From Patescibacteria group bacterium (GTDB taxonomy: Bacteria; Patescibacteriota; Minisyncoccia; UBA6257; Colwellbacteraceae): a DNA stretch of 43,426 nucleotides. Below are positions 7,186 to 40,375 of this stretch, piece after piece (the stretch's first letter is position 1; the number at the start of each line of letters is the position of its first letter). The notes under the pieces were generated by a model. It made no database searches. It was not told where the DNA came from and saw nothing but the letters and a program-made list of their open reading frames with translations. The translations under genes were made by a program, and so were the position numbers. Where the stretch lies: contig JAMCRD010000002.1 of assembly GCA_023380475.1 (NCBI GenBank), positions 1 to 43,426 of the forward strand, written 5' to 3'.

Positions 7186-7193
7186 CGACCTTT
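7186..7193 (-). promoter_or_regulatory. AAAGGTCG leader motif, copy 1
   Basis: Minus-strand AAAGGTCG lies between hsp20 and the small membrane protein, 11 bases before GTG 7174 or 23 before ATG 7162. It is one of eight intergenic copies upstream of starts in this window. Confidence 0.5.
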
Positions 7194-13798: not shown

Positions 13799-13856
13799 TA
13801 TAATATATGAATTCCGGTACCGATATAAAGGTCGCGAGATCAGGGAATATTAGTTC
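13799..13856 (+). promoter_or_regulatory. doxX promoter and leader with AAAGGTCG motif, copy 2
   Basis: TATAAT at 13799-13804 gives a predicted start near 13811 and a ~45-base leader. AAAGGTCG is at 13827-13834, 22 bases before the ATG. The segment TAAAGGTCGC, four bases, then TCAGGG also occurs, with a longer gap, in the leader of the gene at 33916. Confidence 0.5.
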
Positions 13857-19281: not shown

Positions 19282-19289
19282 AAAGGTCG
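19282..19289 (+). promoter_or_regulatory. AAAGGTCG leader motif, copy 3
   Basis: Located 28 bases before the ATG of the 50-residue membrane protein at 19318. Upstream, CATTATG-TGGAG-CATAATG forms a small inverted repeat. Confidence 0.45.
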
Positions 19290-21515: not shown

Positions 21516-22798
21516 TTCGTCCGCGTGACCAACTTATCTATGTTGTAAGCGCCCATTTTCTCGGCCTCCAAGAAACCATGCATCGCTGCTTCAGCGAACC
21601 AGCCGTCCTTCAAGTAATCAGCTAACCATTCGTGGGTATAAATGGGATCATATTGGTCGAGACCCGCCCCCACCTTGAGAAGCCATTCCCGGTTGAAATC
21701 CTCTTGCGAGCCGATGGGCGGCGCGATGACGATAGGTAAGCCGAGGGCGCAGTAAAAGGAAAGCTCGGAGGGCTTGGTCCACAAGATGTCTGTTACTCGG
21801 AGCGTTTCATCGAATTTCTCGAAGTAGTCATGGAGGCCGATGGCCCAGAGAATTTCCGCGCCATCATTGAATGGTTCTTTGAATCCCAAATTTTTCAGCT
21901 CATTCGTGAAATAGTTTACGGTTTCCCGTCGTGTGCCCGCCGAAAGGATAACTTTCACCTTCTTGGCCCTGATGTCGTCGCGCAAACTCTTCACGATTGC
22001 TATGCCGATCTCTTTTTGTGCTCCCGCTCCGCCGATCGAGAACATGATAGTAAGCGGCCGACCCGAGCTTTTCGGCAAAGAGCCGAAATTTGCCTTGATG
22101 ACTGGTCCATACTCGCTCGTGTATCGTCCTGATGGATCTAGGTTCACCAGGCGCGGGCGCATGTCCTCCCGCAGGATTTCCATATCTTGCCCGCCGATGT
22201 TCTCCTTCGGCAGCGGATAACCGGTCAGGTGGATGTTTTCCGCCCTTACACCGTAAAGCTTCAAGCGCTCAAAGACTCGGTCGGTCGATGCGCAATACTG
22301 AATCTTCGTGTTCTTTGGGTCCAGGGGAGCCCAACCGCGCGCGATATCGGCGTCGGCTGTCACGCAATAGATATCGCCGGGATACTTCCACTCCTCAGCC
22401 ATGAACGCTGTTGTGAAAAACGTTGTGATGAGCGGCATTTTTCCTTTGGACAGCCGTTCAATGAGATCTTTGCCCCAGCCGTCGCGTATCAACCGGAAAG
22501 CCTGTTTCAGCGTCTCGTTCGGGCGCGAAAGGTCGCGTCTGGGATAGAAATTGAATATTTTCTGGAAACGATCGTACAGATAAAAGACAGCCGTTCCTAT
22601 GACGGGCACCCGTTTGAAGCGGGATATAAATTCGTAGAAATGTGAAGTGCTGGCCCAGATGTCTTTGTCTTCTCGGGGAATTCCTTCGTAATCGTTGGCG
22701 TTTACGATTTTTTTGTCGGGCGACAAGTCGCGGAGCGGGAACGCCGTACGCTGATGGCCGTATCCCATGGAGACGGCGACAACCCAAGCTTTACTCAT
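21512..22798 (-). CDS. GT-B fold glycosyltransferase-like protein (MGDG synthase-like)
   Basis: 428 residues. The N-terminus (VVAVSMGYGHQRTAFPL) resembles the acceptor-side start of MGDG synthase/UgtP-type GT28 enzymes, and the C-terminal half has IMFSIGGAGAQKE, TKPSELSFYCALGLPIV and PPIGSQEDFNREWL, a nucleotide-sugar-binding pattern. It may glycosylate a lipid, but acceptor and donor are inference. First gene of a three-gene minus operon with EamA and a glycosidase. TATAAT (22805-22810) ends six bases before the ATG, so the operon mRNA should be leaderless. Confidence 0.75.
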   Translation of the reverse strand: MSKAWVVAVSMGYGHQRTAFPLRDLSPDKKIVNANDYEGIPREDKDIWASTSHFYEFISRFKRVPVIGTAVFYLYDRFQKIFNFYPRRDLSRPNETLKQAFRLIRDGWGKDLIERLSKGKMPLITTFFTTAFMAEEWKYPGDIYCVTADADIARGWAPLDPKNTKIQYCASTDRVFERLKLYGVRAENIHLTGYPLPKENIGGQDMEILREDMRPRLVNLDPSGRYTSEYGPVIKANFGSLPKSSGRPLTIMFSIGGAGAQKEIGIAIVKSLRDDIRAKKVKVILSAGTRRETVNYFTNELKNLGFKEPFNDGAEILWAIGLHDYFEKFDETLRVTDILWTKPSELSFYCALGLPIVIAPPIGSQEDFNREWLLKVGAGLDQYDPIYTHEWLADYLKDGWFAEAAMHGFLEAEKMGAYNIDKLVTRTK

Positions 22799-29325: not shown

Positions 29326-29492
29326 TTGACAGCTCACGGTATTATGTTAACCTCAATTAAGGCTTCCTTAATAAACAATCAATCAAGACGCGTGGGCGTG
29401 CCTTAATTATTAGGAATCCTTATAAAAGGTCGTATTGTTAGGTCACCCCACGTAGTCTCAGGTTGAAGCGAGTAGGGTGACTTCATACAAGT
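29326..29492 (+). promoter_or_regulatory. Promoter and structured leader with AAAGGTCG, copy 4
   Basis: TTGACA (29326-29331) with a weak -10 (TAACCT, 16 bases on) gives a ~130-base leader. A TTAAGG-CTT-CCTTAA hairpin comes first (29357-29371). CGTGGG (29391-29396, plus GTG after a bulged C) pairs with CACCCCACG (29444-29452), enclosing AAAGGTCG at 29425-29432. The motif lies 60 bases before ATG 29493. Confidence 0.5.
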
Positions 29493-29681
29493 ATGTACAA
29501 CATACTTCCCCTCGGATACGTTTTGCCATTCCCTGTTGTTCTGATGACTTCCAGTAGCGATCCCGACGGTGGTTGGGATGATGGAACAGCAAGCGAACAG
29601 GGTAATAACGGTGAAGACACCGGAGATTATCAAAGTGCGGGTTATGGAGCCGACTACCCGAGAGAGGACGGTAGCTTATAG
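29493..29681 (+). CDS. Small protein with hydrophobic N-terminus and acidic Gly/Ser/Asp tail
   Basis: 62 residues: MYNILPLGYVLPFPVVLM, then a low-complexity acidic tail (SSSDPDGGWDDGTASEQG...) . It might be exported. No family recognised. The composition alone would not convince, but a promoter, a structured leader with the recurrent motif at 60 bases, and a strong terminator frame it as a complete unit. Confidence 0.5.
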   Translation: MYNILPLGYVLPFPVVLMTSSSDPDGGWDDGTASEQGNNGEDTGDYQSAGYGADYPREDGSL

Positions 29682-29700
29682 AACGAATAAGCCACTGTAG

Positions 29701-29731
29701 TTAAAAGAGTTCCGCGACGGAACTCTTTTAA
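29701..29731 (+). terminator. Intrinsic terminator
   Basis: TTAAAAGAGTTCCG-CGA-CGGAACTCTTTTAA, a perfect 14-bp stem 19 bases after the stop of the 62-residue gene. Confidence 0.85.
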
Positions 29732-29762
29732 TGTCTCGGCGGTTTGTATAAAGTTTAAGTAT

Positions 29763-30743
29763 ATGGTCGGTATAAAATTCGATTTCATAGTTGATAAAGA
29801 AGCGTGTTTTGCATATTGGGCCCAACTCTTGGTGCATCGTAAGAGATTCTGGGCAATCGATCGTGAGTATGAATATTATCGGCAACTCGCAGGTGTTTTA
29901 AACGAATTAGAAAAAACCGCGGTGGGCAGACTCCAACTCATCTTCGATAATGATAAGAACGGATCTTGGTTACCTAATCGGTATATCAGTTCGGGGTTTC
30001 GTACGCTAGAGGAACGAGAAAGCTGGCAGCTGATCCGTTCTGCCCTGAACGCTAAGTTTGAAGAAGTATGGCAACGGGAATCGCCCGCGCTATATAGTTG
30101 GCAGAGTACATTAAGTAATTATTCACTTAGTGAGTTCGAGCCGGTACTTAACAAGATAGCGAACTTCTGGGGGATTGGATCTTTTAGCAGGACTGTACGG
30201 GTGAAACTGTTTTTCTACTGGCGTAACGATTTTACTCAAGGCTATTCATATCGGGGAGTCAAAGATTTCATCTTTCTCGGGATATCTCATATGGATCCTC
30301 GTGGGGTGGTTAGAGTGCTAAGCACTTTGATCCATGAGGTCACCCACTTATTTGAGAACGAATCGCCTCTTTCTAGAGAAGCCTTCATGGAGTTTATAAG
30401 TGTGTTGTACGGCGCAAACCTTGAAAAAGAAGAGCCGGACTGGAGATATCTCTTTAACGAATCAATCATCAAAAGCATAGCAAGTGGTGGCCCAGTCGAG
30501 GATTATGTTTTCAGATCCATATTTGGTGGCAAGACCAAATTAAAATCGCCTGAATCCGAACCAGTCGTCAGGTCGAAAGAGACACACAATTCTCAGATTT
30601 TGTGGATAGTTCCAAAGATCCTGGATGCGACTACCGCTTATATCGACAACGATAAAAGAATAGACCGAGGCTATGTCGAGGAAGTTGCAGCTGCATGGAT
30701 AGAGTTGAGAGGGCTTATGAAGCAGGCTGCTGACAATCGATAA
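29763..30743 (+). CDS. Putative zinc metallopeptidase (HExxH), unknown family
   Basis: 326 residues, no signal peptide or membrane helix. STLIHEVTHLFENESPLSRE contains HEVTH (191-195), the classic zinc-binding motif, in a predicted helix, with Glu198 and Glu200 close by and further glutamates in AFMEFISVLYG as third-ligand candidates. The rest has no recognised family. It converges on the HerA-like gene with 14 bases between the stops. Confidence 0.65.
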   Translation: MVGIKFDFIVDKEACFAYWAQLLVHRKRFWAIDREYEYYRQLAGVLNELEKTAVGRLQLIFDNDKNGSWLPNRYISSGFRTLEERESWQLIRSALNAKFEEVWQRESPALYSWQSTLSNYSLSEFEPVLNKIANFWGIGSFSRTVRVKLFFYWRNDFTQGYSYRGVKDFIFLGISHMDPRGVVRVLSTLIHEVTHLFENESPLSREAFMEFISVLYGANLEKEEPDWRYLFNESIIKSIASGGPVEDYVFRSIFGGKTKLKSPESEPVVRSKETHNSQILWIVPKILDATTAYIDNDKRIDRGYVEEVAAAWIELRGLMKQAADNR

Positions 30744-30757
30744 TCATATCTGGTTTA

Positions 30758-32776
30758 TCAGGCCGCGAATCTTTGTATTTGGACCGGTACGACGTAAGGG
30801 TTGGACAGAGTTTTCATCCTCAGGAACCCCCTTTCATCGGCGCGCAGGATGCTTTTCTCGAAATCACTGAAGTCGTAGAACTTGTTCAGCTCCCTGGTTT
30901 CATCCGTGTTGTTTAGATGGCCGATAAACCAGTTGGCCGTGTTTCTCAGCACATTCTTTTGGATCGAGCTCACTTCCTGGGTGGCGTAGACCAGCCCGAT
31001 ATTGTACTTGGCTCCTTCCTTGGCTGTCCGCACCCATACGTTCGACAGCTCCTTGGATTCTGCGGCGGGGAGGAGATTGTGCGCCTCCTCAATGTATACC
31101 AGCAACTCTTCGGGTTTAGCTCCGGATACGAAGTCGGACCGGTTACCGTCGAAGATCCGCTGCATTATCCGCTCCGCCGTTATTCTATTAAGGTCAGCGT
31201 CGCCGCTGGATTGGTCTATTATCACCAGCCCGCCTTTTTTGAGCTCAGCGTATATTTCATCGGCGTAGTCATTGTCTTGCTTCGCCCCGTGCTGACCCTT
31301 GACCCGCCCGATTAGACCTGGCCCGTTGCTATATCGGAACATCTCCAAAATTTTCATTAGCTCCTCGTCCGCCCACGACGTACGATCGGGGTGTTCAGCG
31401 GTATAGGCGTTATCAAAGTCGCGGAAGCCCGAATCTCGATTGTGGACAAAGTCATACAGATCGCGGGCCACCGAAGCCAGCTGACTCCAAGTAATACTGG
31501 GCTTGCTGAGCGCCTCTGCGGCGCGCCTGTAAGCCGAGAGTCTCCTGTTGTCGCCCTCCATAGCTTCCAGCAGTTCTTTTTCGAACATATTATCGGTTTC
31601 CGGCCTTATATTATTGGGTGCGTCGAAGCCGGCCTTGAAAAGTAGAGCACGGTAGAACAGCGTGCGCCGCTTGAATCTTCTTACCTCGTCAGGATCGGAG
31701 TCTTCGGCCGAGCGGAAGCCGACATCCTTGAAATTGGAGACGTACTTTGTTTGGTCGGATGCGAGAGCGCCGTCGATTATGTCCTTGCCCAACTGCAGGT
31801 TATTCTCGGCGTAGAAATTCAGGCGCATAAGCCGGCGGTCCGGATCATTGGGATGAGGGATAATCCCATAGGTCAGTATTTCTCTCTGTGCGGAGTCGCG
31901 CAGTTGGCTTGGCGCGCGCATCCAAATGTTCTTGATCGCACTTGGTGCCGCATCCTTATCCTGCACGTTTTCGTTGGCGTATTCGCCATTGGGATCGAAT
32001 ATCAACTGGCCGATCTTTTCGTTGTTCTCCCAACGGAGCTGGAAAATCGACTTCACGACTATCTTGGTGGTGTTGGATTTCCCAGTGCGGGTCATGCCAA
32101 ACACCGCCGTCCGCTGGTTCAGCAGATCGGTTGGGGTTATCTTCACCGGCACATTGGATATCTTCTGGAAAGGACGATTAGTCGAAGCGTACCTTACTTC
32201 GCCGATTGATACAGCTATGTTTCGCTGGAGGTCTGCGTCCGGACGGCGGTAGTTGACCACTCTCTCCAGAGCGGGCCCTCTTAGTTTAAAAACTTTTAAT
32301 CCGCGGTTGGGATAATAGTTGCTTAGGTCCGAGCCGAACAGCAGCGCTTTGCGCCCTTTAACTTCATCAATATAAAAAGTCCCGAGGACGCGGCAGCGGA
32401 TGCCGGTGTAGCTGAGTATCTGCTGCAGGATTGGATCGACTATCGCTTGGTCGTCCCACAGCTTCTCCGGATCGCCGCTGACTTTGCTGGCGCCGATTAT
32501 CCGGAGGCGAGTGAATTCGGCGTCAGTCGGCAACTCGCCGCGGTCGATGACCCTAAGCAGAATAATCGAAGCGTCCTCTTCACGGATGTCGAACGGCTCC
32601 TTGGGATTTATTCTGGTTGCGGCCAGGAAAGATAGCGCTGGTATCCCGCCGACCTTCTTACGGTCGGCATCCTGTACCTGAACCAGCGCTTCTTCATAGT
32701 TGAGCGAGTAAACTTCGCCGATGTAAGCCTCTGGTTCGATGAGATCTGCGAGGAGCTTGTAACTGGAGTCGATCAT
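30758..32776 (-). CDS. HerA-like ATPase (DUF87)
   Basis: 672 residues from ATG 32776, chosen because MIDSSYKLLADLIEPEAYIGEVY begins the domain; the frame is open to 32842 but the extra 22 residues look spurious. An N-terminal HAS-barrel-like domain (20-200) precedes the ATPase core: Walker A GMTRTGKS (227-234), FDPNGEY, then Walker B LLVYIEEAHN and GLVYATQEVSSI. HerA ATPases form hexameric rings that pump DNA, usually with the nuclease NurA, which is not in this window. In other genomes related proteins also act in defence or conjugation. Confidence 0.88.
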   Translation of the reverse strand: MIDSSYKLLADLIEPEAYIGEVYSLNYEEALVQVQDADRKKVGGIPALSFLAATRINPKEPFDIREEDASIILLRVIDRGELPTDAEFTRLRIIGASKVSGDPEKLWDDQAIVDPILQQILSYTGIRCRVLGTFYIDEVKGRKALLFGSDLSNYYPNRGLKVFKLRGPALERVVNYRRPDADLQRNIAVSIGEVRYASTNRPFQKISNVPVKITPTDLLNQRTAVFGMTRTGKSNTTKIVVKSIFQLRWENNEKIGQLIFDPNGEYANENVQDKDAAPSAIKNIWMRAPSQLRDSAQREILTYGIIPHPNDPDRRLMRLNFYAENNLQLGKDIIDGALASDQTKYVSNFKDVGFRSAEDSDPDEVRRFKRRTLFYRALLFKAGFDAPNNIRPETDNMFEKELLEAMEGDNRRLSAYRRAAEALSKPSITWSQLASVARDLYDFVHNRDSGFRDFDNAYTAEHPDRTSWADEELMKILEMFRYSNGPGLIGRVKGQHGAKQDNDYADEIYAELKKGGLVIIDQSSGDADLNRITAERIMQRIFDGNRSDFVSGAKPEELLVYIEEAHNLLPAAESKELSNVWVRTAKEGAKYNIGLVYATQEVSSIQKNVLRNTANWFIGHLNNTDETRELNKFYDFSDFEKSILRADERGFLRMKTLSNPYVVPVQIQRFAA

Positions 32777-32854
32777 GCCGCTTCGGATTAAGAATAACAT
32801 TATGAGTGGTCGAACCGAAATGCAGCCGGTCGAGATTGACACACCGTATAAAGT

Positions 32855-32968
32855 TCAAAGACTTCGTTTCCCATGAGGGCACAGCCTGGCCACATCGGTC
32901 AGCCTCATCTCTTTGCTCACGATGGGCAGTATCCACCTTAGTCTCTCTTCTCTTATTGTTTTGGCCAT
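32855..32968 (-). pseudogene. Remnant of a transposase N-terminal HTH (37 residues)
   Basis: Starts MAKTIREERLRWILPIVSK and continues MRLTDVARLCPHGKRSL, then stops. The pattern of a helix-turn-helix ending '...RS(L/I)' just before an expected RW is what begins several IS481/integrase-type transposases, but no catalytic part follows in any frame. It may be the stub left by a decayed insertion element in the gap upstream of the HerA gene. Confidence 0.35.
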
Positions 32969-33054
32969 ATTTACACACATTCCTGAATGTTAGCTGCAGA
33001 TCTAGGAACCGCCATATATGTGTGTACATTATCGTCTGGCATCGATCGATCAAT

Positions 33055-33213
33055 TTGACATGGTGTCGCATTTATTGTATTTTAAGACACTCTTTAAAAA
33101 TCAATTAACCATTAGCAAAAGGCTTCAAGTAAGCCGGATGTTGATTAAAGGTCGAACCTTAATTAATCGCCGGCTTACTTAAAGAGTGTGAGCTAGGCGG
33201 TTTTAGTAAATGT
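33055..33213 (+). promoter_or_regulatory. Promoter and structured leader with AAAGGTCG, copy 5
   Basis: TTGACA (33055-33060), 17 bases, TATTTT (33078-33083); start near 33090. The leader begins with ACACTCTTT (33087-33095), which pairs with AAAGAGTGT (33181-33189). Inside, AAGTAAGCCGG (33127-33137) pairs with CCGGCTTACTT (33170-33180), and the apex holds AAAGGTCG (33147-33154) in AAGGT-CGA-ACCTT. The motif ends 59 bases before ATG 33214. ACTCTTTAAAAATC also resembles a boxA antitermination site. Confidence 0.6.
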
Positions 33214-33720
33214 ATGAATCTCGATCAAGAAAGAAAGATCAGCGCAGTGTGGGTGTTGGTATTCGTTTTAGTAGTTGTGATACTTGTAGCGATCTTTGCG
33301 TCCCTCAACAACACAAACTATGTATCCAGCGGATACTCTCCAGTTTGCGATATAGGTACTTCAACTAGTCAGATTGTGACTGCGCCGCGCGATCAGGTAT
33401 ATGAGTGTCTAGCCGAAAACGGCAACTTGTACACGAAGGACACCCAAGGGAATGTATACAAGGTATGGCCGATTTCTAGCAAATTGGACACACTGTCGGT
33501 TGATACTCTGCAATCTGTGTACTACAGAATAACCGGTAAAAAGGATGTCCATAACGATGCAAGCACAATCGCCGAGGATATACTAGCCGCCGCATACAAC
33601 GCGCCGCATGGGGCCAACATCCCGGAGATAAACGTGGATATAACCGGGACGTGGCCCAATCTGAGTGCGAGTTACGTGTATGGACCCTCGAACGCAGTTC
33701 TTCTGTACAGCTCGAAATAA
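33214..33720 (+). CDS. Membrane-anchored secreted protein, unknown
   Basis: 168 residues. MNLDQERKISAVWVLVFVLV is a signal-anchor, followed by an extracytoplasmic domain with two early cysteines (SPVCDIG, YECLAENG). The rest is moderately polar with no recognised fold. A complete unit: promoter, structured leader, gene, terminator. Confidence 0.72.
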   Translation: MNLDQERKISAVWVLVFVLVVVILVAIFASLNNTNYVSSGYSPVCDIGTSTSQIVTAPRDQVYECLAENGNLYTKDTQGNVYKVWPISSKLDTLSVDTLQSVYYRITGKKDVHNDASTIAEDILAAAYNAPHGANIPEINVDITGTWPNLSASYVYGPSNAVLLYSSK

Positions 33721-33744
33721 CCTCTGTTAATGGACGGTGACGGA

Positions 33745-33769
33745 GCCCCAAGTTACACTTGGGGCTTTT
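33745..33769 (+). terminator. Intrinsic terminator
   Basis: GCCCCAAGT-TAC-ACTTGGGGC followed by TTTT. Confidence 0.88.
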
Positions 33770-33810
33770 CGTGTCCCGCATTTTCCCCATATGGTTAACT
33801 GTACGATTTC

Positions 33811-33915
33811 TTGACAGACACACCTACACATTGTATAAACTCTACTATAAAGGTCGCTTCCTGCTCAGGGCATAGTTGCAACGGGGAGCGGACTCCTTCG
33901 TTGCTTTTAAATATT
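33811..33915 (+). promoter_or_regulatory. Near-consensus promoter and leader with AAAGGTCG, copy 6
   Basis: TTGACA (33811-33816), exactly 17 bases, TATAAA (33834-33839); start near 33846. AAAGGTCG at 33849-33856 is almost at the RNA 5' end and 59 bases before ATG 33916. A second hairpin, GCAACG-GGAG ... CTCC-CGTTGC (33878-33904), lies just before the start codon and would compete with ribosome access. Confidence 0.65.
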
Positions 33916-34221
33916 ATGAAAACAAGCACGTTCTTCCTGATCTTGGTTGGAGTGTTAGCGGCGATGTTCGCGGCAACATATCTGCTGTATGGGCCTCCGC
34001 TGGTGGTTCATGCCGTCGGTGATGCTTGGATAATCAAGAATGGTTTCACGCTGAATATGGTTAGCATGGATTGCTATGACAACTACGGCAACAAGATCAT
34101 AGCCCGCTCGAGGTGGTTTACCGACAGCGTGATCAACTTGCCGGGTGTTACAACGGTGAAGTGCTATCCTTATTTCGGCCTTGGATTGCCTATGGTCGCA
34201 ACCCGCGACGATGTGCGGTGA
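33916..34221 (+). CDS. Small secreted protein with signal peptide
   Basis: 101 residues from ATG 33916; an upstream in-frame start at 33811 is excluded because it coincides with the promoter. MKTSTFFLILVGVLAAMFAATYLL is a signal peptide or anchor. The domain holds two cysteines (MDCYDNYG, VKCYPYFG) that could pair. Unknown family. Own promoter and terminator. Confidence 0.72.
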   Translation: MKTSTFFLILVGVLAAMFAATYLLYGPPLVVHAVGDAWIIKNGFTLNMVSMDCYDNYGNKIIARSRWFTDSVINLPGVTTVKCYPYFGLGLPMVATRDDVR

Positions 34222-34243
34222 AGTGAGACATGAATGCTGTTCG

Positions 34244-34272
34244 ATAAAAGCCTGTTTATAACAGGCTTTTAT
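34244..34272 (+). terminator. Intrinsic terminator
   Basis: ATAAAAGCCTG-TTTATAA-CAGGCTTTTAT, 22 bases after the stop. Confidence 0.85.
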
Positions 34273-34314
34273 ATGTGGCTGGATTGTAAGAGTACGGTCC
34301 CCACATCGATCGAT

Positions 34315-34485
34315 TTGACTGATACCTCAAAATATGTTATACATAATCAACTCTGTTCGTTTATAACTTATCCATCTAAAACCTCTTTGAGGCGTGGGTA
34401 AAAGGAGTTATTATTACAAAGGTCGAACCTTAAATGAGTTAGCTCCTCCACGTTTCGAATGAAGACGGAGGATGCTAGTAAAGAT
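34315..34485 (+). promoter_or_regulatory. Promoter and structured leader with AAAGGTCG, copy 7
   Basis: TTGACT (34315-34320), 17 bases, TATACA (34338-34343). The leader has a CCTC-TTT-GAGG hairpin, then CGTGG and GGAG pairing with CTCC and CCACG, enclosing AAAGGTCG (34418-34425) in AAGGT-CGA-ACCTT. The motif lies 60 bases before ATG 34486. The last bases, TAGTAAAGATATG, resemble TAGTAAATGTATG of the leader at 33214. Confidence 0.6.
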
Positions 34486-35007
34486 ATGAAGAAAAGAATC
34501 CTTGTGTACATCCTGATAGCAGTTCTGATATTTGTTGCTGTTGTCGCTGTCAAACTTGGTCAGGAGGGGAATAAGTACAACCCACCGGTCAAAAAAATCC
34601 CGACTAACATGAGCTTCACCGGCAACGTTAGTTCGTCAATCGCCGGAGCGAGTGTGAATGTGGAAGTTCTCCAATCATCCGGGATGCTATCTGTGACAGG
34701 ACAAAAAGGCAACCAAAGCGCTATCGAGGTTTTTGGCCCGGCCGAACTTAGGATAACTTATAACATAAGCAAGAGCGGGTGCATGATTTCTAACGGTCCG
34801 GAAGATCCGCAATTCGGTTCGCCAACATTAGGCCAATCCAGTAATATCGTAGATCTTCCCGCCAATAACGGTAGCGAGACAGTTTACTACTCTTACGTGG
34901 TAGCCTGTAAAAACTCCAACGGCGGATTTACTGCCAGCAGTTCGCCTGAGGTCAATGTGTCTGTACCGAATATCTCGCAGTACATCGGGACTGGGACTAA
35001 TAAGTAG
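34486..35007 (+). CDS. Membrane-anchored secreted protein, unknown
   Basis: 173 residues from ATG 34486 (ATG 34459 would add nine). 34486 is preferred because it keeps the 60-base distance from the AAAGGTCG motif and starts MKKRILVYILIAVLIFVAV, a clean signal-anchor. A beta-rich domain follows (AELRITYNISKSGCMISNG; YYSYVVACKNSNGG), resembling an Ig-like fold with one pair of cysteines. Terminator after the gene. Confidence 0.72.
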   Translation: MKKRILVYILIAVLIFVAVVAVKLGQEGNKYNPPVKKIPTNMSFTGNVSSSIAGASVNVEVLQSSGMLSVTGQKGNQSAIEVFGPAELRITYNISKSGCMISNGPEDPQFGSPTLGQSSNIVDLPANNGSETVYYSYVVACKNSNGGFTASSSPEVNVSVPNISQYIGTGTNK

Positions 35008-35063
35008 ACTTCTACTACGATGATATAGGTAAGTTCTAGCATGCGCTAGATGGATTTGAGATG

Positions 35064-35092
35064 AAACAACCCACTTCAAGAGTGGGTTGTTT
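35064..35092 (+). terminator. Intrinsic terminator
   Basis: AAACAACCCACT-TCAAG-AGTGGGTTGTTT, nearly the same hairpin as 27402-27429. Just before it TCTAGC-ATGC-GCTAGA forms another palindrome. Confidence 0.85.
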
Positions 35093-35123
35093 CTATGTTT
35101 TATGGTACACTTTTAGTACTAAG

Positions 35124-40367: not shown

Positions 40368-40375
40368 AAAGGTCG
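40368..40375 (+). promoter_or_regulatory. AAAGGTCG leader motif, copy 8
   Basis: 33 bases before ATG 40409. Flanking AATAAA and TATTTATT can pair, with GGTCGAAGTCC at the apex, giving a small AT-rich hairpin. Confidence 0.45.

Follow-up and report, generated by a model that had tools for sequence, protein, structure and literature searches.

An eight-letter upstream motif as a probable non-Shine-Dalgarno translation-initiation element in a Paceibacteria genome without an anti-Shine-Dalgarno sequence

The Shine-Dalgarno (SD) ribosome-binding site is a short, purine-rich mRNA element with a preferred spacing to the AUG that is strongest before abundant proteins, and the eight-letter motif AAAGGTCG described here resembles it in these respects. 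However, the motif has a different sequence that is not complementary to the CCUCC core of the 16S rRNA, which is lost here, and it stands at a median of 22 nt (17–33) before the AUG, whereas SD sequences stand 5–10 nt before it. The bS1-dependent enhancers, e.g., that of E. coli atpE, are U-rich, loosely defined translation enhancers located upstream of the gene. Here too, atpE is preceded by the element at a similar distance and a bS1-like protein is encoded, but AAAGGTCG is sequence-specific. Riboswitches and RNA thermometers are comparable insofar as two mutually exclusive folds, modelled for the leaders of the genes at 33214 and 34486, could either mask an initiation element or bridge its distance to the start; unlike them, the leaders match no Rfam family. 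The AT-rich ribosome-binding sites of the FCB group, described with GeneMarkS-2/StartLink, are likewise non-SD upstream signals where SD is weak, but they consist of an AT-rich composition near the start rather than a sharp, G-containing octamer farther out (PMC9581028). Another comparison is given by the SD-scarce organisms without CCUCC (Flavobacteriia, Wolfebacteria, Campbellbacteria and Absconditabacteria), in which CCUCC is also lost and SD is rare; Wolfebacteria and Campbellbacteria, for which this loss has already been published, are Parcubacteria like the present genome (PMC10783764). The part of that publication cited here names no replacement motif for them, whereas the present genome has a specific octamer. 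In the open-access literature, loss of the anti-SD in some CPR lineages has been reported and no report of a AAAGGTCG motif was found. A conserved and sharply defined octamer with a preferred spacing is a concrete, testable handle on how start codons are chosen after the anti-SD has been lost. The motif would also improve the prediction of gene starts in this bacterial group, which is among the largest uncultured ones, and the long leaders described below are candidate RNA elements whose hairpins may measure distance for the ribosome.

The motif, its spacing peak, its conservation, the loss of the anti-SD and the associated hairpins were all established computationally. The source genome, labelled G000, is a 600-kb Parcubacteria genome (class Paceibacteria) with 45 exact copies of AAAGGTCG, as opposed to 26 of the reversed control. 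Within the window, i.e., the whole stretch of 43,426 nt that was analysed, nine exact copies occur against 1.47 expected, a number reached by 0/100 dinucleotide shuffles. The genome statistics are based on the window and 12 further stretches, together 283 kb or ~47% of the genome, supplemented by the genome-wide list of 45 exact sites. When 1120 permutations of the octamer were compared over the 283 kb, AAAGGTCG was extreme at 15–33 nt before the first ATG with 11 sites (mean 0.09), the best non-overlapping other permutation reaching 2, and it was also the top permutation in the 57–62 nt bin (3 sites, mean 0.03). One-mismatch variants before an ATG are nearly absent from the same 283 kb. An unbiased scan for 8-mers upstream of genes in the own genome ranked AAAGGTCG first as well, with 11 occurrences against 0.49 expected. 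About 10 of the 45 copies lie within coding sequence and look fortuitous, among them the copy at 22528..22535 (+ strand), a chance occurrence within an oppositely oriented gene that stands outside the system, and a few others (e.g., L022, L033) have no clear downstream gene. Only ~32 of the 45 copies precede a start codon, corresponding to a few percent of the genes. Since most genes start without the motif, it is better described as an enhancer of a subset than as a general code.

At simple sites, 23 copies end 17–33 nt before the ATG, with a median of 22 and 12 of the 23 at 21–23 nt, and their spacers have an AT content of 70%, hardly any structure and not a single SD-like 4-mer. Four of them lie in the window: at 7186..7193 (− strand, 23 nt before ATG 7162 of a 69-aa membrane protein), 13827..13834 (+, 22 nt before ATG 13857, DoxX family), 19282..19289 (+, 28 nt before ATG 19318 of a 50-aa membrane protein) and 40368..40375 (+, 33 nt before ATG 40409 of a mechanosensitive-channel-like protein). 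Nine further copies are long-spaced, 50–75 nt from the ATG, and include the four cassettes flagged in the initial annotation. The genes behind AAAGGTCG include rplL (ribosomal protein L7/L12), HU, atpE (ATP synthase subunit c), a KhpA-like KH protein, DoxX, a pilin-like protein and several small membrane proteins. The khpA-like KH-domain gene at L034 (G000:C5:86369-86376) carries its own copy 30 nt before the ATG, and autoregulation is possible. Many copies overlap or closely trail an upstream gene on the same strand (L020, L024, L027, L029, L044, L045 and others), and several are located within the previous operon gene or at its end, as in rplJ-rplL and the atp operon, which favours a role at the RNA level and disfavours a promoter role. 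A promoter or transcription-factor element is accordingly very improbable: some copies do stand just past a −10 box (33849, L040, L002), but the operon-internal copies do not suit such an element, and the distance from the −10 box to the motif ranges from ~9 to 45 nt, whereas that to the ATG peaks at 22. We strongly infer that the motif functions in translation. The explanation we consider probable is that AAAGGUCG acts in translation initiation as a non-SD element specific to this lineage, the spacing of which is bridged by hairpins in long leaders. Its 3' end, ~22 nt before the AUG, would lie where the mRNA exits the small subunit, and it may recruit or hold the ribosome at some of the genes, predominantly those for small and abundant proteins. 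The idea of ribosome recruitment had been raised for the cassettes at the outset, and the sharp distance peak in the own genome and in relatives supports this link between motif and start codon well, with ~17–23 nt as the preferred distance.

The 3' end of the 16S rRNA of G000 reads GGAACACUUACAUUU in place of GGAUCACCUCC, and AGGAGG precedes 1/313 genes of the own genome, in which SD sequences are nearly absent. In nearly all sampled members of the order, GGAUCACCUCC is replaced by the tail GGAACAAUUAAAC or a similar one, while CCUCC is often retained in other families of the class. Genomes at the class level show a graded decay of the anti-SD, from CACCTCCTTTC via forms such as CATTTCCTAC and ATATCCAATT to full loss, a series in which the disappearance of SD usage could be studied. 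In G000, a group I intron (Rfam RF00028) lies near the 16S 3' end at L046 (G000:C6:174074-178555), together with another insert after TTGTAC, so that automatic 16S annotation ends before the true 3' tail. The 16S trailers of many relatives (L061, L063, L065, L066, L069, L074 and L077) have in common a conserved hairpin, GGUCGnGGAGCy...AAGUCnCGAC, with GGUCG inside, which is followed by GGGnCAACUAAAAA. The KH domain of Era binds GAUCACCUCC (PMC10582724), and Era is mostly absent from Paceibacteria (PMC12641178).

According to the proposed mechanism, AAAGGUCG would stand in for the SD in a Paceibacteria order without the 16S anti-SD. The anti-SD could instead have been relocated, with a lengthened 16S tail whose UCGA(C/U)(C/U)UUU pairs with AAAGGUCGA; the pairing would lie ~16 nt more distant than in the SD case, which would account for a spacing of ~22 nt. 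The offset of the complement within the tail does predict this spacing, and complementarity between tail and motif reaches p<=0.05 by shuffling in 9/26 genomes, with 9 pairs in G030 (a perfect 9-mer), 7–9 in G003, G012, G013, G017 and G021, and 5–6 in G009, G016 and G018. However, it is absent from G000, the most enriched genome, and from G020, G023 and G037, all of which use the motif; the position in the tail varies (G016/G021) without a matching shift in the mRNA spacing, and the complementary stretch is often part of a processing stem. We regard relocation as rather unlikely on this balance. Pairing of the motif with the universal TCGACC elsewhere in the 16S rRNA was also considered and is uninformative, being present in nearly all relatives whether they use the motif or not, and no exact complement of the motif occurs elsewhere in the rRNA. 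The initiation element may be recognised by rRNA or by a protein that belongs to the ribosome or binds to it, e.g., bS1. A bS1-like protein, in which Pfam detects three S1 domains, is encoded in G000 and is a possible candidate for this role.

Most of the family shows enrichment of the pattern AAAGGTCGN{15,30}ATG, as do some other families of the order. Matches against control amount to 26 vs 1 in the own genome and to 5–19 vs 1–7 in most family members, of which, e.g., G003, G011, G013 and G015 show modest counts only. In a phylum-wide scan, the enrichment was limited to the own family and order, and within the order G026, G028 and G036 are not enriched, though G026 and G028 have lost the anti-SD. 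In G016 and G020, which belong to other genera, AAAGGTCG is again the top upstream octamer, with a spacing of mostly 16–27 nt. The 109 sites listed for ten relatives peak at 16–24 nt, whereas the initial annotation had proposed looking in related species for a peak at 59–60 nt. A looser pattern, AGGTCGN{17,27}ATG, was rejected for comparisons across the class, as it is confounded by GC content and its outliers G355 and G389 are coding DNA. A different sequence, CGTCAAA, is overrepresented before the genes in the stretches L189-L193 of G020 (8 vs 0.7 expected).

Upstream of rplL, AAAGGTCG is found in 11/25 genomes, with wholly diverged flanks, and GGTCG in 15/25 genomes against 0.21 expected from shuffles. 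The same or related cores precede rplL in Liptonbacteria, Colwellbacteria, Wolfebacteria and other Paceibacteria. The motif lies 17–47 nt before rplL in the relatives, and some of the spacers of 38–47 nt have no obvious hairpin, which indicates that the spacing is loose. These data also bear on a trans-acting regulon, in which an sRNA with CGACCUUU or an RNA-binding protein, e.g., a KH protein of the KhpA-like type, would modulate the translation of abundant or envelope proteins without the motif being a ribosome site. The sharpness of the octamer, of which variants are almost untolerated, its restriction to a subset of genes and its presence at the khpA-like gene itself would all suit such a regulon. 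An identical motif and position before rplL in many genera and the co-occurrence with anti-SD loss fit general initiation better, and the gene-less copies that were scanned match no known RNA family. We therefore consider the regulon unlikely, though the least so of the alternatives.

The four cassettes lie on the + strand, apart from the terminator-like stems, to which no strand is assigned. The first has its AAAGGTCG element at 29425..29432, 60 nt before ATG 29493, a bridging hairpin in the motif–ATG interval at 29440..29483 (−19.8 kcal/mol, p=0.003; ~17 nt outside), a 62-aa ORF at 29493..29681 and a perfect terminator-like stem at 29700..29732. A HerA-like ATPase (DUF87) at 30758-32842 (−) separates it from the other three. 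The second begins with a sigma-70-like promoter, TTGACA-17-TATTTT, at 33055..33083, followed by the element at 33147..33154, 59 nt before ATG 33214, a hairpin at 33165..33202 (−18.3 kcal/mol, p=0.013) that leaves 21 nt of the motif–ATG interval unpaired, a 168-aa ORF with an N-terminal hydrophobic segment at 33214..33720 and a stem at 33745..33770. In the third, the predicted transcription start of the promoter TTGACA-17-TATAAA (33811..33839) adjoins the element at 33849..33856, which lies 59 nt before ATG 33916; a small extra hairpin (33862-33872) precedes the bridging hairpin at 33878..33904 (interval −17.3 kcal/mol, p=0.064; 21–32 nt unpaired), and a 101-aa ORF with a signal-peptide-like N-terminus (33916..34221) is followed by a stem at 34244..34271. 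For the fourth, a promoter TTGACT-17-TATACA was read from the sequence at 34315..34343; its element at 34418..34425 lies 60 nt before ATG 34486, the hairpin at 34439..34478 (−15.8 kcal/mol, p=0.013) leaves 20 nt unpaired, and the 173-aa ORF (34486..35007) ends before a stem at 35063..35093. An alternative in-frame ATG of this gene, at 34459, is only 33 nt from the motif.

The distances of 60, 59, 59 and 60 nt given in the initial annotation are exact, and the copies are beyond chance. Its view that each gene has its own promoter and terminator applies to the terminator-like stems of all four and to the good promoters of the genes at 33214, 33916 and 34486, whereas at 29326 a −35 box is followed by a poor match to the −10 box. 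No Pfam family was matched by the four proteins, and their designation as exported relies on hydrophobic N-termini judged by eye, so that they are at most putatively exported. The protein at 34486, through which conservation of its leader was sought, has no relative in the 26 other genomes of the family. At the gathering score, Rfam finds only tRNA and LSU rRNA in the window, and the leaders match no family of riboswitches, thermometers or r-protein leaders. The suggestion that some leaders are copies of one another goes back to those at 33214 and 34486, which share the 16-mer AAAGGTCGAACCTTAA and similar last bases; the likeness ends there, so that copying is at most possible.

In all nine long leaders, the motif–ATG interval folds into a hairpin that beats shuffles (individual p 0.002–0.064; Fisher p=3e-9), and the hairpins of the five besides the flagged four give a combined p of 6e-6 by themselves. 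Only 14% of the other genes fold at the same level (z<=−1.8). Outside the hairpins, 15, 25, 36, 20, 4 (or 17 if a weak outer helix is disregarded), 21, 21, 20 and 34 nt remain, largely the range of the simple sites. A constant 59–60 nt had been taken to suggest a fixed geometry; this distance is exceptional among the 45 genomic sites, the usual one being 17–33 nt, and instead of reflecting a fixed linear geometry it is mostly a composite of a hairpin (27–44 nt) and a spacer of ordinary length. However, six of the nine long sites fall at 59–61 nt, a tighter cluster than bridging alone predicts. Bridging of long spacers by modelled hairpins is supported statistically: in the four cassettes and the five other long leaders, the hairpin would fold away the extra 30–40 nt and restore the usual spacing. 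Endonucleolytic cutting at AAAGGUCG, which would yield efficiently translated leaders of ~22 nt, might be proposed instead, as many 16S tails have (G)UCGA, similar to the motif core, near the presumed 3' processing point, and the distance of the motif from the transcription start varies. A processing site needs no fixed distance, however, so that the narrow spacing to the ATG and the bridging hairpins would be left unexplained, and we find this improbable, more so than a relocated anti-SD.

Returning to the initiation element, two of the leaders contain a further fold. A stem enclosing the motif had been described for three leaders, and long stems do exist (fold z −3.7, −4.0 and −2.8; −1.2 for the 69-nt leader at 33916), but among the four cassettes the enclosing helix is above chance only at 33214 and 34486, where 0/60 shuffles were as good. 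At 33214, the upstream arm AAGTAAGCCGG (33127..33137, +) forms an 11-bp enclosing helix with 33170-33180, and at 34486 the upstream arm at 34386..34398 (+) forms one of 13 bp with 34447-34459. Both compete with the bridging hairpin, as the upstream strand targets nucleotides of its 5' arm. The layout at these two genes fits a possible two-state RNA switch, in which the upstream arm would steal the 5' strand of the hairpin, leave the motif un-bridged and lower translation. The switching originally envisaged is thus plausible for these two leaders, whereas at the remaining long leaders, including 29493 and 33916, a competing helix was not above chance against shuffles, apart from weaker cases at L003 and L004 (3/60 and 2/60 shuffles as good). 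Ribosome binding, an enhancer role, bridging and switching are what we infer from the combined observations. More tentatively, and with considerable doubt, an entire order might have given up SD pairing and evolved AAAGGUCG as a different, sequence-specific initiation code, which something else than the 16S tail would read where the mRNA exits, with hairpins as spacers that in some leaders act as switches connecting the element to the start codon or disconnecting it. At L004 (G000:C1:56331-56338), near-identical hairpins (GATACTC...GGTATCTG) stand on either side of the motif, and their strands can swap partners.
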